Shown here piece after piece: positions 457 to 39,653 of a DNA stretch of 64,000 nucleotides. Below the pieces are notes generated by a model, which did not search any database, was not told the DNA's origin, and worked only from the letters and a program-made list of their open reading frames with translations. The stretch covers positions 682,001-746,000 of the forward strand of contig JAKCFJ010000001.1 of assembly GCA_025041175.1 (NCBI GenBank), read 5' to 3'. Within the stretch, counting starts at the first letter, position 1, and each line of letters starts with the position of its first letter. A program made the translations under genes and the position numbers. The DNA comes from Halobacteriales archaeon YIM A00010 (GTDB lineage Archaea; Halobacteriota; Halobacteria; Halobacteriales; Haloarculaceae).

Positions 457-511
457 CATTGCAAGAGCTTCGCTCTTGCAGGCTCCCAGATGGACGAAGT
501 CCATCTGAGAG
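457..511. repeat. Inserted pair of triloop minihairpins
   Basis: Two perfect 9-bp-stem hairpins lie side by side: 460-480 (loop TTC, GAA on the other strand) and 487-507 (loop GAA), separated by six bases. Relative to the sister repeat at 1200-1222, where TCTG is followed directly by GACCAAAAAAGG, these 55 bases are extra. TCTG stands on both sides of the pair (453-456 and 504-507). This looks like a discrete insertion of a hairpin pair into an older repeat. Confidence 0.75.
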
Positions 512-14044: not shown

Positions 14045-16258
14045 TCAATCGAGTTCCCGGTCGAGCACACCGCGAAGCTCCCGAACGGTCCCAGCGCCGT
14101 ACTCGAGCACCTCCCCGTTCACCGAAAGCGAGAGCTGGCCGCTCGCGTCGGTGTGCCCGATCTCTTCGACCGGTGTGACGTTTTCGAACGCCGTTCGGAC
14201 CGCTTCTGGAGCGGTGGTTTCGACGACAGCCCGTCCCGCCCGCTCGTTGAACAGCAGCCCTGCGCTCCCTCCGTCGCCAGCGAGCGTCACGTCGGCCCCT
14301 CTTTCCGCCGAAATCATCTCCGCGAGGGTCACGGCAAGCCCGCCGTGGCTCGCGTCGTGCACCGCTCTGGTGTGTTCGTCGGACGCCACCGAAGCGAGCG
14401 TCTCGACGAACGCCGAGGCCGAAGCCGCATCGGCAGGGGCCGGGAACGCGTCGGTGCCCTCGAACTGGGCGAGAAACTCGCTCCCACCGAGCTTCGGCGT
14501 CCGATCGCCTGCCACTGCAGGATCCCCGACGAGGAGGATCGTTCCCGGCTCGGTCGCCTCAGGAAACGCCAGGGGTGGAGCGTCGTAGCCCTCCGTGGCA
14601 CCGACCATCGCCAGCGTCGGCGTCGGCGGGATGGGACCGCTCGCGGAATCGTTGTACAGGGAGACGTTGCCCCCCACGACGGGCACCGACAGCGCCCGGC
14701 ACATGTCGGCCAACCCGTCGATGATTCCGTTGAACCCGCCGTACACCTCTGGGGTTTCTGGATTGCCGCCGTTGAGACAGTCCACGGCTGCGAGCGGTGT
14801 TGCCCCTTTGGCAGCGAGGTTCGTCCCGACCTCGAGCGCCACGGCGCGGGCACCCGCATACGGCGCGGTGCTCGTCCAGTTCGGATCGCTACCGGCGGCG
14901 ACGGCAACCCCTCGATCCTCCTCACACTCGGGCATCGCCAGCACGGCGGCGTCGTCACCGGGCCGGACGACCGTTCGTGTTCCGACCTCGTGGTCGTACT
15001 GGCGGTACACCCACTCCTTGCTCGCCGCGTTCGGGCTTGCGAGGACGGACTCGAACGCCGTTTCCAACGCCGGTGTCGGGAGCGCTGTCTCTGTGGGTGG
15101 CTCCGGGGAAACGCTATCGAGATCGTTCATCGGCGCACCGTCAGCCAGGTAGTCGGCCGGCACGTCAACGACCGTTTCTCCCTCGAACGCACAGACGTAG
15201 TTGCCTTCTGTCACGCTCCCGATGACCGAACAACCGAGATCGAACCGGTCTGCGACCGCTCGAACGCGATCGACGTTCTCGGGCGCTACTTCGTAGCACA
15301 TCCGCTCTTGGGATTCGGCGAGCAGGATTTCGAGCGCGCTCATGTTCGGCTCTCGCTGGTGGACGCTATCGAGTTCGATCTGCGCGCCTAACTCCCCCTT
15401 TGCGACCAGCTCGCTGGATGCGCCGCCGAGTCCCGCCGCGCCGAGGTCGCGCGCCGATTCGATCAACCCCTCTTCGACGAGCGTCTCGTTCGCCTCGATG
15501 AGGAGCTTCTCGGTGTAGGGATCACCGACCTGTACCGCCGGCCTGTCCTCGGTTTCGGCGTCCTCGCTCAGATCTTCACTCGCAAAGCTGGCACCGCCGA
15601 GTCCGTCACGACCGGTGGCGTTGCCCACGAGCACCAACGCGTTGCCCGGGGTCTGGGCCTCCGCGGTGACCAGCCGGTCGGGCGTCACCACCCCGACGCA
15701 CGCGACGTTGACCAGCGGATTGCCGTCGTAGTCGGGGTGGAAGGCGACGCTTCCCCCGACGGTCGGCACCCCGATGGAGTTGCCGTAATCGGCGATCCCC
15801 TCCACGACCCCCTCGAACAGATACCGGGGGTGTTCGTCCTCGAACGACCCGAAGTAGAGGCTGTCGGTGAGCGCGATCGGGTACGCACCCATCGACATCG
15901 TGTCGCGCACGATCCCACCCACTCCTGTCGCGGCACCGTCGTAGGGATCGACGTAGGACGGATGGTTGTGGCTCTCGATTCCCAGCGTGATGTACACGGA
16001 ATCGGACAGCGCGACCACGGCGGCGTCGTCGCCCGGCCCGACGACGACGTGTTCGCCGTCGCTATCGCCAGAAGCCTCCGGCTTCTGGCTGCCAGAGGGA
16101 CGTAGTCCCTTGCTGTCAAACGCCGACAGCAGTGGTCGGGAGGAGCGGTACGCGCAGTGTTCGCTCCAGAGATTCTCGAAGAGCGCTTCCTCCGCTGGTG
16201 TCGGATCGCGGCCGAGCTCCGAAACGACGAGTTCGTAATCCGACGAGGCGAGGCTCAT
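14045..16258 (-). CDS. purL: Phosphoribosylformylglycinamidine synthase subunit II
   Basis: PurL (737 aa) converts FGAR to FGAM with ATP and ammonia from PurQ in purine synthesis. The two AIRS-type halves are intact: the N-terminal [10 protein letters not shown] motif, [41 protein letters not shown] and, in the second half, [11 protein letters not shown] and [11 protein letters not shown]. Between FDS and DGEHVVVG (about residues 49-66) 17 extra residues are present, [17 protein letters not shown]; this is the translation of two DNA minihairpins inserted in frame, not a domain. The loop lies between two conserved motifs and is evidently tolerated. Confidence 0.95.
16061..16111. repeat. 51-bp minihairpin pair inserted in frame in purL
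   Basis: Hairpin one is a perfect 10-bp stem, 16067-16076 with 16080-16089, loop TCC (GGA on the coding strand). Hairpin two is a 6-bp stem, 16096-16101 with 16105-16110, loop GTA. GCTATC at 16061-16066 and GCTGTC at 16112-16117 look like a six-base target duplication with one change. Length is 17 codons with no stop, so purL stays open. Confidence 0.8.
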
Positions 16259-32539: not shown

Positions 32540-32867
32540 CGGGGCGGTGGCGGTGCGGAGCGGAGAGTACACTCCCCGCGAGCGCAGTTTCCGCGAGAGA
32601 AGTCGTTCGAAACCTATCGCCGTTTCGTGATCTCGCACGAGCGACGCTCTTGGGGACCTCGCGGAGGGCCCTCCGCTCAGTGACGAAACGCTTCGATTTT
32701 CGGACCACGAGTGGGAGCAAGCCAGCGGCTTTTTTCACCCGCCTTTTGCGTGAACGGTGTCCGAAGTTGTTCGAAAGAGCTTCACTCTTTCGTGATGACA
32801 AAAGACGCTCCGCGTCTTTTGTAGCACCACCCAAACGCAAAAAGGTGGGTGGTAAAGCCGAAGCTAC
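32540..32867. repeat. Hairpin-rich repeat region, partial composite element
   Basis: 32540-32600 matches the GC-rich half of the composite repeat (GCGGAGCGGAGAGTACACTC, then CCGCGAGCGCAG). Further right are several perfect hairpins: 32772-32792 (stem CGAAAGAG) and 32800-32820 (9-bp stem, loop TCC), then a CACCCAAACGCAAAAAGGTGGGTGG inverted repeat. It ends about 40 bp before the deacetylase start, so it forms its promoter or leader region. Confidence 0.65.
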
Positions 32868-35055: not shown

Positions 35056-38000
35056 TAATACCGGCTATGTCCGGACAAAGACTTCCCCACACAGCGGGTG
35101 AAGACGAACCGATGAGCGATGAGATGCCTCCGGTCGAGCTGCTGACCGACGCTCATAACGTCACCCACATCTACGTCGAGGGAACCGAGGAATACGTCGA
35201 GGAAGAGGAGTTGTACGCTCTCTCTTATGCGAACGGCTACGTGCAGGCGCGCGATCGGCTGTTCGAGATGGACGCACTCCGACACATCGGATACGGCGAC
35301 AGCGCGGGCGTGCTCGGTCCGATGCAGCTCGCGTCCGATGTCCAGGTCCGGCGGGATCTCTACACCCACGAGGAGCTCGAAGCCCAGTACGAGGCCGCGA
35401 GCACCACTGTGCAGGTGTCACTCCAAGGGTTCGCCGACGGAGTGAACCGCCAGCTCGTAGAGCGACTCGTCGACCGGGAGCTTCCGGCCGAATTCATCGC
35501 GCTCGGCCACGCCCCAGAGCCGTGGTCGCCGGTCGATAGCGTCGCAGTGCTGGCGTACATGGTCGGCTACTTCGGGGTGGGCGGGGGAACGGAGTTGGAG
35601 AACGCAAAGACGTTCGCCCGGCTGACCGAAACCCTCGGAGACGAACGAACGGCCTACGAGACATACGAGGATCTGAACTGGCTGTCGGTCCCCGAGAACC
35701 ATTACACCACCATCGACGCGGCAGAACTGACGGTTCCGGGCGGTGAATCAGTCCCCGGCTACGAGAACGTTCCCGACGAGCAGCTGGCGCTCACACACGC
35801 CGCGGCCGGCGCAACGCCGTGGGGTGTCGACAGCGATCTGCTCGGCGGAGCCACCCCCGGGGCCGTTCGGCGAGCGATCGGCGCGCTCTCGGGCTTTCGG
35901 TGGGGCAGCAACGCGCTTGCGGTCGATGGGGAACACACCGAGACGGGGGAGCCGATGCTGTTCGGCGGCCCGCAGATGGGCTACTTCTCCCCACCGGTGA
36001 TTCACGAGATCGGGCTCCACGGCGCGGGGTTCGACGTTGCGGGCATCGGTGTCGTCGGCACGCCGAGCGTGGTTATCGGCCGGACACCCGAGTTCGCGTG
36101 GAGTATCACCAGTGGCTACGACGATCAGGTCGACACGATCGCGGTCGAACTCCACCCCGAGGACCGCCACCGATACCGGTGGAACGGCGAGTGGCGACGG
36201 ATGGAAACCGAGACGGTCGTCCACCGCCCGTCGGTGCTCGGCGCGCTCGGCAACGGCGACTGGCCACGTGGCTCCGTCGAGCAGGAGATCGCCCGGATCG
36301 AGGAACGCGGGGATTCGATGCCTGTCGTCGCGTGGAACCCCGACGAGCGGATCGCGTGGTGTCAGCGCACCACGACGCGGGGCAACGAGCTGGATGGTGT
36401 GTTCATGTGGGCGGAGCTCGGTCGTCAGGAGAATTTCGAGGAGTTCGAGACCCAACTCGCCGAGTTCCCGTTCACGTTCAACTTCATCTACGCCGACACC
36501 GAGGGGATCGCGTACGTCCACACTGAATCCGTCCCCGACCGAAATCCCGATCTCGACCACCGGTTTCCCGCGCCCGGTAGTGCCCACCGCTGGGACTCGA
36601 TCACCACCGGAACGGGACTCGGGATGACGGTGCGAAATCCAGACCGTGGATACATCGCCCAGTGGAACAACGCGCCGGTCGCGGGGTGGCGCGCCGGTGA
36701 CGTCGCGGGACGCTGGGGATCGATCCACCGCGCCGAGCTGCTCGACCGGCTGACCCGTGACGCTATCGGGAACGGATCGCTCTTACTCGAGGACGTGGCG
36801 GGGATCATTCGGGACGCAGCGACCCGGAGTCCGATAGCGAACGCAACGACGCCCCTGTTCATCGAAACCGCTCGTGATGTTGGTATGGACGCACTTGCGG
36901 ACGAACTCGAACGGTGGGCGGAGACGGAATACACATGGAAAGCCGAGAACGGCCGGCACCTTCCGGGCGTTGCCATCTGGGAAGCGATCCGGAGGGAGCT
37001 GCAGACGCTCGCCTTCCGCGAGGAACTCCGCGATCTGACGCCGACGCTCCAGTTCGATCCACCGACCGATATCAGCCTCGATGAGAACGAGGATCCCCAT
37101 GCCGGCGATCACGGCCGTGCACTGCGGGACGTGACGCTCGTCGATGCGCTCGCGGAACGGACGAGCCACGACTGGCTCGGCGAGGGAACCGTGCGGACGG
37201 CGCTCGAGCGCACAAAACACGTTGACCGACCGGTTCGACACTGACGATCCGACAGCGTGGCGGATGGACAGCCGGACGACCGGGTTCAGGGAAATCTCCG
37301 CGGTAGATGGGCCTGCAATCGATCTCTTGACATCCTCTCGCCCCTAAAGGGACGAGATTCCTCGCGCTTGGGGTCGATCGGTTCGACCACCAACGGAAGC
37401 AACTTGCAGGTTCGTGCGTGATTCTTTGGGACTGTCGTGAGCGTGTGATATCGCCGACCATTCGTGGTCGTCCCACTCGAACCGCACAGGCCGTGCCATC
37501 GGCCCGACTTCGGTTCCGGTCTCGGTTTCGAGAAACAACCGTGACGCATCGAGGTCTGCGTGAGCTTCGAATCCACACGGACACCACAGACTATCGCCAT
37601 GGCGAATCGTCTTCTCGCGTTCCCCACACTCGGGACACTCTTGAGAGGTCCACGATTCGTCGCATTCTTCGACGGTGATGCCGTATTCCTCGGCGGTGTC
37701 TTCGAGACGGTCGATGAACCGTCGGTGTGCCCAGAAGTTGTGCGTTTTCGCGTTGGCTTCGACCGACCAATGCGTTTCGAGCACACCGGTGAGATCACCA
37801 ACGTACACCACAGAGACACCCAGTTCGGCCAACCACTCGAAGAGATCCCTGGCGAGCGCGTTCATGGCGTGGTCGCGCCGCCGGGTTCGCTTGCGGTACA
37901 ACCGCCGGATCTGCTCGCTTGAGTACTTCCCAGCCGGAAGCTTCGACTGCAACTCGGCGATGCGCATGGTCGTTTCTCGGAACTGTTCGTAGCTGTCTGT

Positions 38001-38075
38001 CCCGCTGTACAAAAACTGCTGGCCGGTCTCGGTGGTACACGCGACGAGATTGTTCACACCAACGTCCAGAGCAGT

Positions 38076-38140
38076 CATCAGACTACGTCTGATGGGTAAC
38101 CAGAAATCTACGATTTCTGGTGACAGCCTCATGCGAGGCT
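38076..38140. repeat. Three tandem minihairpins inserted in tnpB
   Basis: 38076-38094 (8-bp stem, loop TAC), 38100-38120 (9-bp stem, loop TAC) and 38125-38140 (6-bp stem, loop ATGC) follow one another with gaps of five and four bases. They separate two conserved tnpB segments (PESEAL and TALDVGVNN) and break the frame. Confidence 0.75.
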
Positions 38141-38424
38141 AGTGCTTCCGATTCGGGTGAGAAATCGCTTACCGTCATCGGCTGAAACGCCCTGTGTTCG
38201 TCGGTGAGATCGTCGTGGTGTATCTCCAAGCGGCACTGGTTCCCGTCCCAGCGAGGGTTGCCCTCGGCTTCGAGCCGGAGGCGGTCGTAGGTGCCGTATC
38301 CATACTGGTCTTTGAGATCGTCGCCAATCGTGAACTCCACTCGCGACCGCTCGCCCCACGTGATCGTGTAGGAGTCGTTGCGGATGTAGGTTTGCAGCTC
38401 GCGGCCCTCCTCGCGGTTGTCGAA

Positions 38425-38469
38425 GCGAATCTACGATTCGCTGACCATTGGAAATCTTCGATTTCCAAG
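38425..38469. repeat. 45-bp minihairpin pair inserted in tnpB
   Basis: 38424-38442 (8-bp stem, loop TAC) and 38448-38468 (9-bp stem, loop TTC) are five bases apart. The length is 15 codons, but the loop of the first hairpin reads TCG-TAG on the coding strand, giving a stop. Confidence 0.8.
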
Positions 38470-38762
38470 ACCCCAGTAGCCGGGCAACCCCTTGTCGGGG
38501 TCGTCCGAGTCGAAAAAGCCCTTCCACGCGTCGTCGTTCTTGCGAATCACCTGCTGGGCGGTCGCACTCCCGAGCACGCCGAGATACTGTTTCCGGAAGT
38601 CGTCCTGGCGGATATGCCAGACGTTCCCACCATTGAAAAACGCCTCTTGGCGGGCGTAGTTGAGTTCGTTGTACAGCGATGGGACAGCGTCCATCACACG
38701 CCGAAGGATCTCCTCGGTCTCGCCAGATCGTGCCCTGACCGTGAACGTGTTGGTGCGCTTCA

Positions 38763-39200
38763 TTAGCCCTCCTTTTCCCACTGGTCAGCGATGTACTGTT
38801 CGACGGCTTCGCTCGTAACAGCATCAGAACCTGTCTGTTCTGATTGGCACGCCGAATCGCACAATGATTCGGGGACACTCCCGGCACTGCCCACGTAGTA
38901 CGAACGGGTCCACTTGATGTGGTCGTCGTATCGATCATTGTACCACCGTGCGGAGATTCCTTTGATCCAGTTCAGAATCAAGGAGGGTGCATTCCGTGGT
39001 GGACTTCCGATACACAGGTGAACGTGGTCGGGCATGATGTCGACTTCGACCAATTCGAGGTCTTTATCGTCACAGATTTCGGCGAAGATGGCTTTGAGCC
39101 GATCGGCAGTCGCCCCCGTGAGACACGGTTCCCTGTATTTGGGGATGAACACTACGTGGTAGTAGAGTTCGTAAACTGCGTGTCGGGTGCGATTCGCCAT
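38763..39200 (-). CDS. tnpA: TnpA Y1 transposase (IS200/IS605)
   Basis: A 145-aa Y1 HUH transposase that cuts and joins single-stranded DNA at hairpin ends. The start is [23 protein letters not shown]; the HUH motif is [12 protein letters not shown] and the catalytic Tyr is in VEQYIADQ. Between YYVGSAGSV and TSEAVEQYI 19 extra residues ([19 protein letters not shown]) are the translation of a 57-nt hairpin pair, so this copy is longer than usual (about 125 aa) but stays open. Whether it is active is unknown. Its end overlaps the tnpB start. Confidence 0.88.
38817..38873. repeat. 57-bp hairpin pair inserted in frame in tnpA
   Basis: 38823-38844 (stem ATCAGAAC, six-base loop) and 38852-38872 (stem CCGAATC, seven-base loop). 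Loops are longer than in the GNA hairpins elsewhere, but the paired layout, position inside a gene and in-frame length are the same. Confidence 0.65.
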
Positions 39201-39653
39201 ACCTGTATACTATGTCCGGTAAACATAAGCGTTCCGTCAGACCCCGGCCAGCAGTTTCGACTGTGTTTGGGTGGTTCTGTGATCGCTTAGACCCCGCCGT
39301 AAACGGCGAGGCTTCCGCTTGCTCACGTCAACCGCGGGAGTTGGAACCTGCTCGTGACGTTGGCCACCGGAAACGGTCGCTCCGTCCTCCCGCCCTCGAA
39401 TTCGGGGCATCTCTCGATCGGCGAGCTTCCTGGGGCGCTCACGGGCTCGCCTCCGGATCGACTCACCGACCAGCTCGGGCTGTACGAGCGCTTCGAGTAC
39501 AAGCCGTTCCCGGTCGAACGCGAGGCCGTCGTTGCGAACGCCGAACGCCGAGACAATCTCCCCGTGTGGCGACGGTCGGGAGCCAAAGGCCAGGCGTTCG
39601 CGCTGCTCTCCCAGTGGTTCCGAGAGTAGTAGATCACTGCCCGGTCCGTCGCG

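Follow-up and report, generated by a model that had tools for sequence, protein, structure and literature searches.

The stretch of DNA analysed here (64,000 nt from the Halobacteriales archaeon YIM A00010, hereafter the window) contains an IS200/IS605-type element in which hairpin-forming sequence has accumulated inside both tnpA and tnpB. A preliminary description of the locus offered two explanations, chance decay of the element or insertion of hairpins into its single-stranded transposition intermediates. We asked whether these hairpins belong to the biology of IS605 elements, or whether they are units of a different kind for which an IS605 element is one host among several.

Hairpin pairs inserted in tnpA and tnpB

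The inserts were mapped by aligning the element with six IS605 relatives that are intact or nearly so (Table 1); the transposase gene matches PF01797 at G000:C1:720865-721176. In this alignment the three hairpin clusters are real insertions, and each consists of two adjacent hairpins. The 57-nt in-frame insertion previously noticed in tnpA was borne out. It reads ATCAGAAC(ctgtct)GTTCTGAT tggcacg CCGAATC(gcacaat)GATTCGG, with loops larger than the norm, and another locus (L236) carries a related pair close to this tnpA site. The insertion in tnpB with an in-frame TAG was likewise present (AGCGAATC(tac)GATTCGCT gacca TTGGAAATC(ttc)GATTTCCAA), while its length had to be revised: raw DNA alignment gives the 45 nt first proposed, whereas both a protein alignment, in which the insert falls between YWG and NREEG, and a homologous insert at the same site in another haloarchaeal family (L221, stem TTGGAGAGC..GCTCTCCAA) give 51 nt. 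The frame is kept and the TAG lies inside the insert in both the window and L221. The third, frame-breaking insertion was also found (CATCAGAC(tac)GTCTGATG ggta ACCAGAAATC(tac)GATTTCTGGT), with a 3-bp direct repeat, CAG/CTG, at its ends, and the same insert is held by locus L043 of genome G082. It comprises two hairpins and not three, since relatives show GGCTTCTCACGAAGCC or GGCTTCGGAAGAAGCC where the third hairpin stands, making that hairpin native to tnpB. Searching the window and three further loci against Rfam returned nothing but one tRNA.

Table 1. Positions in the window of the IS200/IS605-type element, its inserts, and further hairpin pairs
Feature	Position	Strand	Remarks
IS200/IS605-type element	about 37328-39325	minus	from alignment to relatives; outer limits approximate
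Left end of element	near 39286-39325		with its own hairpin
Right end of element	near 37328-37365		
tnpA, including in-frame insert	38763-39200	minus	Y1 transposase, 145 aa
Insert 1	38816-38872		in tnpA; 57-nt hairpin pair, in frame
tnpB, broken by inserts 2 and 3	37344-38760	minus	open piece 37344-38132
Insert 2	38420-38470		in tnpB; 51-nt pair, 17 codons, in-frame TAG
Insert 3	38075-38126		in tnpB; hairpin pair, about 49-52 nt, frameshift
Native tnpB hairpin	about 38124-38140		AGCCTCATGCGAGGCT; adjoins insert 3, not an insertion
purL	14048-16240	minus	
Hairpin pair in purL	16064-16114 (limits approximate)		17 codons, 51 nt, in frame
Hairpin pair	460-507		TGCAAGAGC(ttc)GCTCTTGCA ggctcc CAGATGGAC(gaa)GTCCATCTG
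Hairpin pair	32772-32822		CGAAAGAG(cttca)CTCTTTCG tgatg ACAAAAGACGC(tcc)GCGTCTTTTGT

Anatomy, coupled arms and abundance

Hairpin pairs of this kind are about 48-60 nt long and consist of two perfect stems of 7-11 bp separated by a spacer of 4-7 nt, with 3-nt loops that are closed by C-G and in 82% of cases are GNA or the complementary TNC. Clustered hairpins with stems of at least 7 bp numbered 116 in the first 864 kb sampled from this genome, and 101 of them had 3-nt loops; 95 of these 101 were closed by C-G and 83 carried GNA or TNC loops. Among isolated 3-nt-loop hairpins in the same stretches, 33 of 167 were of the GNA/TNC type. C-GNA-G is an extraordinarily stable DNA minihairpin and, as most of the loops are of this type or its complement, the structure speaks for single-stranded DNA. 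The 5' arm is almost without T at positions three to seven. Subfamilies can be recognized in which the outer stem, spacer and flank are conserved and the inner stem and loop vary freely. The S1 subfamily has the form RCCAGA..TCTGGY TGCTA ACCAGA..TCTGGT with flanks GTC and GAT; the spacers of other subfamilies read tcatca, gtatcca or tgacctc.

The two arms of a stem change together. Among 21 distinct 51-nt S1 elements, 98.8% of cells were paired and 47 cells were changed on both sides, as compared to 11.8 in shuffles. Covariation was 0.316 versus 0.088, a level reached by none of 500 shuffles, and it fell to 0.051 or less in slid structures. As the outer stems served to select the S1 set, information comes from the inner pairs alone, and these contain most of the double changes. 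At an insertion site common to many IS605 copies (site 115, below), 16 cells had changed on both sides versus 6.2 in shuffles (0 of 500), and two pairs switch jointly between GACC..GGTC and AATC..GATT. Insert 2 and its L221 homologue also differ on both arms of their stems (TTGGAAATC..GATTTCCAA versus TTGGAGAGC..GCTCTCCAA). Such pairing might be maintained because selection favours the hairpin, or because one arm is copied from its partner.

The window contains five pairs with both stems of at least 7 bp, as compared to 0, 0, 0, 0, 0, 0, 0 and 1 in eight second-order Markov sequences, and a 400-kb sample of the same genome contains 38, versus 0 in the control. A strict type was defined as two neighbouring hairpins with a 3-nt loop and a C-G closing pair. 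Stretches totalling 1.664 Mb of the 5.97-Mb genome held 59 strict-type clusters with 168 hairpins (Markov sequence, 0), which extrapolates to about 200 clusters in the whole genome. Most pairs in this genome are intergenic. The S1 subfamily is locally expanded in it, with 16 exact cores (G000) versus 0-2 in each of 98 other sampled genomes; across the 99 genomes the S1 core pattern gave 25 matches, and its reversed control none. The pair at 32772-32822 has its outer sequence in common with a four-hairpin array at L071:869-969. Arrays of up to nine hairpins were also seen at L006:19275-19497 and L019:14294-14600, where the in-pair spacer NRGCA alternates with an inter-pair GACA motif. A separate pair family, GCAAATCGC..tggatac GGGAAATC, was observed at L008:11978, L018:8997 and 19059, L079:19358 and L023:7782, either capping larger palindromes (CTCGGGGTC..GACCCCGAG) or adjoining IS605-like terminal hairpins.

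Insertion sites and possible routes of movement

Filled and empty sites were compared in 104 IS605-type loci spanning many haloarchaeal genera. The majority of the full-length loci are 91-95% identical to ISHhu1; some loci were included twice, and copy numbers in this set are upper values. Inserts of at least 30 nt were present in 42 of the 104 loci, nearly all of them hairpin pairs and at shared, discrete sites, with main lengths of 51, 54 and 60 nt. Site 115 carries a 51-nt insert in 24 copies from about 14 genera (by genus code), and further inserts occupy sites 990 (54 nt), 1147 (54 nt), 388, 724, 970/976, 1540 and 1633; those at sites 423, 688 and 691 are not hairpin pairs. Either of two other pair families sits at almost one position in the left-end hairpin of ISHhu1-like elements. 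Some pairs also sit within older ones: in L221 and L229 the 1147 pair has a 51-nt pair in its spacer, and in L035, L212 and L221 the left-end pair contains a second pair. The presence of an insert barely tracks the IS backbone, with carriers/changes of 20/15 at site 115, and of 7/6 and 12/10, on a quick tree of 62 distinct backbones with no shuffled comparison, and all four combinations of presence and absence were found for each pair of sites. Because the tree is hardly followed and all combinations occur, the inserts appear either to have been exchanged through recombination or to have come and gone precisely; the weak fit may be a product of recombination among IS copies and not of transposition.

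The boundaries are unlike those of a standard transposon, as the terminal direct repeats differ in length: site 990 has 6 nt, insert 3 and one nested pair have 3 nt, and elsewhere repeats are absent or unclear. A constant target duplication was accordingly rejected. No tetranucleotide was shared among the mapped junctions, which are few and in some cases old; the host IS itself mostly follows TTAC. That the insertion sites are themselves hairpins or palindromes is suggestive at most: in a weak test 4 of 11 mapped sites touched a stem of at least 5 bp, versus a 15% background, and inverted repeats of at least 8 surrounded 6 of 94 clusters, versus 1.8 expected and up to 6 in shuffles.

How far IS605 elements are a special host was judged from cluster counts by surroundings. 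The 97 kb surrounding 30 tnpB genes contained 13 clusters, 11 of which were, on manual reading, of the type with a C-G closing pair and a 3-nt loop. By comparison, there were 5 in 89 kb around DDE_Tnp_1 genes (2 of that type) and none in 89 kb around IS66 transposases, so the pairs are not spread evenly irrespective of IS type. In this genome 5 of 77 clusters fall in IS605 coding sequence, which makes up 7.0 kb of 1664 kb. When the other IS605 copies of the genome are compared, as had been advised, two clusters remain in 5.2 kb of coding sequence versus 0.24 expected, a weak enrichment once the window is excluded. Together, the counts by surroundings and the coding share make IS605 a preferred place, with most copies elsewhere, several of them in host genes. 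The accumulation in IS605 that was first called striking thus stands, but as a preference rather than a confinement. As a separate observation, the 5.97-Mb genome has 28 TnpB-type (PF01385) matches and only 4 Y1 transposase matches.

The strongest competing explanation is that the pairs are specific to IS605, either as substrates of the Y1 transposase TnpA or as inserts into single-stranded IS605 intermediates. Their enrichment around IS605, their hairpin structure and the inserts within the left-end hairpin all fit, yet we regard this explanation as unlikely, and with it the original proposal that ties the inserts to those intermediates. Most copies lie outside IS605, the junctions have no tetranucleotide in common while the host IS mostly follows TTAC, and IS605 end hairpins have 4-nt loops of the TTCA/TTTA type, unlike the inserts. 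In addition, no PF01797 (Y1) match was present in four of the seven genomes with an S1 core in the sample of 99, although loss of the transposase after insertion is possible in these carriers.

Movement via an RNA copy is less probable still. It would suit the lack of a constant target duplication, but the loops, C-GNA-G or its complement, follow a DNA minihairpin motif and not a typical RNA tetraloop. Such a route has been suggested for the double-hairpin elements of Allomyces because flanking duplications are lacking there (PMC2800124). Formation of the palindromes in situ by template switching during replication, with no mobile element involved, would account for perfect stems and coupled arm changes. 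This is very improbable, as one subfamily, with its outer stem, spacer and flanks, recurs at unrelated loci in many genera, and homologous pairs at one site vary yet keep their subfamily. Marginally less credible still is descent from IS605 copies that have lost their core: 52-bp terminal-only PATEs are known in Haloquadratum, but they come from deletion around one near-terminal palindrome, whereas the pairs fall into many subfamilies, combine two different hairpins with a conserved spacer, and have loops that do not resemble those of IS605 ends. Chance, the other explanation first offered, whether as accidental palindromes or as the decay of a dead transposon, fits the broken tnpB of the window and is otherwise negligible given the Markov controls and insertion sites common to other genomes.

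The reading we prefer is that the inserts are haloarchaea-wide, non-autonomous, tiny two-hairpin elements moved via single-stranded DNA, a statement to which, taken whole, we assign a probability of about 0.6. Its parts differ in strength. That the inserts are mobile double-hairpin elements and not specific to one IS is highly probable, and a route through single-stranded DNA is given slightly less than even odds. Each unit would fold into C-GNA-G minihairpins in single-stranded DNA, be copied or moved in trans by a putative hairpin-recognising enzyme, and insert without a constant target duplication. The lack of a junction tetranucleotide, the variable repeats and the four of seven S1 genomes without a PF01797 match lead us to favour such an activity, acting in trans on single-stranded DNA and untied to the IS605 transposase. 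IS605 elements may then collect pairs since inserts are tolerated there and their own terminal hairpins may be targets, and selection would afterwards retain in-frame, stop-free copies in genes. A stronger version is tentative and, as a whole, rather doubtful: that haloarchaea hold a new superfamily of minimal single-stranded DNA elements, made of two C-GNA-G minihairpins with co-rewritten arms, in frame in essential genes, nested, and served by a novel putative enzyme.

In-frame copies and comparable elements

Intragenic inserts that are widely spread measure 51, 54 or 60 nt and are open in frame, while off-frame inserts (52, 55 and 59 nt) occur as single or rare copies only, in a count that treats copies sharing descent as separate. 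Among host genes, identified with a simple codon-usage caller built for this analysis, an empty site in relatives was seen for purL alone: a stretch of 33 residues in the window corresponds to 16 in an 86%-identical relative, 17 residues more, and the insert is absent from purL of relatives. In-frame pairs also occur in this genome in the genes for an acyl-CoA synthetase, which had few homologues for comparison, for a TANGO2 protein and for a GH3 glycosidase with 8 hairpins, among others. The peptides encoded by the inserts resemble one another (EEQRSSGNRTQSGD, EARSASSNRPQAGDS), and in-frame copies would be read as hydrophilic linker peptides. In the GH3 gene (L077:16801-17010) the eight hairpins form two arrays, all in frame, and add a long S/G/R/D-rich linker ahead of the C-terminal domain.

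Paired small hairpins dispersed in genomes are familiar as REP, BIME and REPIN sequences, which are linked to Y1-type enzymes (RAYT). REP stem sequences are conserved, whereas in the haloarchaeal pairs the inner stems vary and the outer stems and spacer are conserved; the haloarchaeal pairs also occur in frame in genes, and some of their carriers show no Y1 match, in counts that take RAYT and TnpA together. As compared to MITEs of the IS200/IS605 type, they share no fixed target tetranucleotide at the few mapped junctions, some of them old. Rickettsia palindromic elements (RPE) are short palindromic repeats found in frame in unrelated protein genes, where they encode a recurrent peptide (PMC10969869). 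The haloarchaeal inserts resemble them in being in frame and stop-free in diverse genes (purL, acyl-CoA synthetase, GH3, TANGO2), with the TAG of insert 2 as the exception. RPE are bacterial and about 150 bp long, in a comparison made by description, and the haloarchaeal pairs differ further in their strongly variable inner stems and in being common between genes and in IS605 as well. Mitochondrial double-hairpin elements of Allomyces and sponges are tandem hairpins with complementary stem substitutions, sometimes genic and without flanking duplication (PMC2800124). They share with the haloarchaeal pairs an inserted unit of two adjacent hairpins, but reside in organellar genomes, and sequence kinship is not claimed. 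In Haloquadratum, SMR-A elements are small, enter the near-terminal palindromes of PATEs and IS605-type elements without duplicating the target, and have a mobilisation that was called enigmatic (PMC3119063). The two pair families that occupy the left-end hairpin in ISHhu1-like elements are similar in position and in lacking a constant target duplication. SMR-A (HqIRS42/43/55), again compared by description, are about 110 bp, have inverted terminal repeats and lie mostly outside the transposase ORF. By analogy, RPE and the mitochondrial elements appear closest in function and habit, with SMR-A the nearest report within haloarchaea; in the open-access literature, the Haloquadratum SMR/PATE work was the only earlier haloarchaeal description found.

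If the preferred reading of the pairs as mobile two-hairpin elements is true, haloarchaea would own a counterpart of RPE, with inserts of about 50 nt adding 16-20 residues to working proteins, and may owe to it extra linkers, frameshifts and stops in their TnpA and TnpB genes. Dozens of near-identical IS copies, some with a given site filled and others with it empty, make movement and joint arm change directly testable. Such inserts would also be common to IS605 elements across many genera. The S1 core itself was found in Halorubrum, Halolamina, Halocatena, Halogeometricum, Halomarina, Halorientalis, Natrinema and others, and an S1-type pair was additionally observed at L155:3871-3921 in Actinarchaeum halophilum, an archaeon whose name is not that of a usual haloarchaeal genus.
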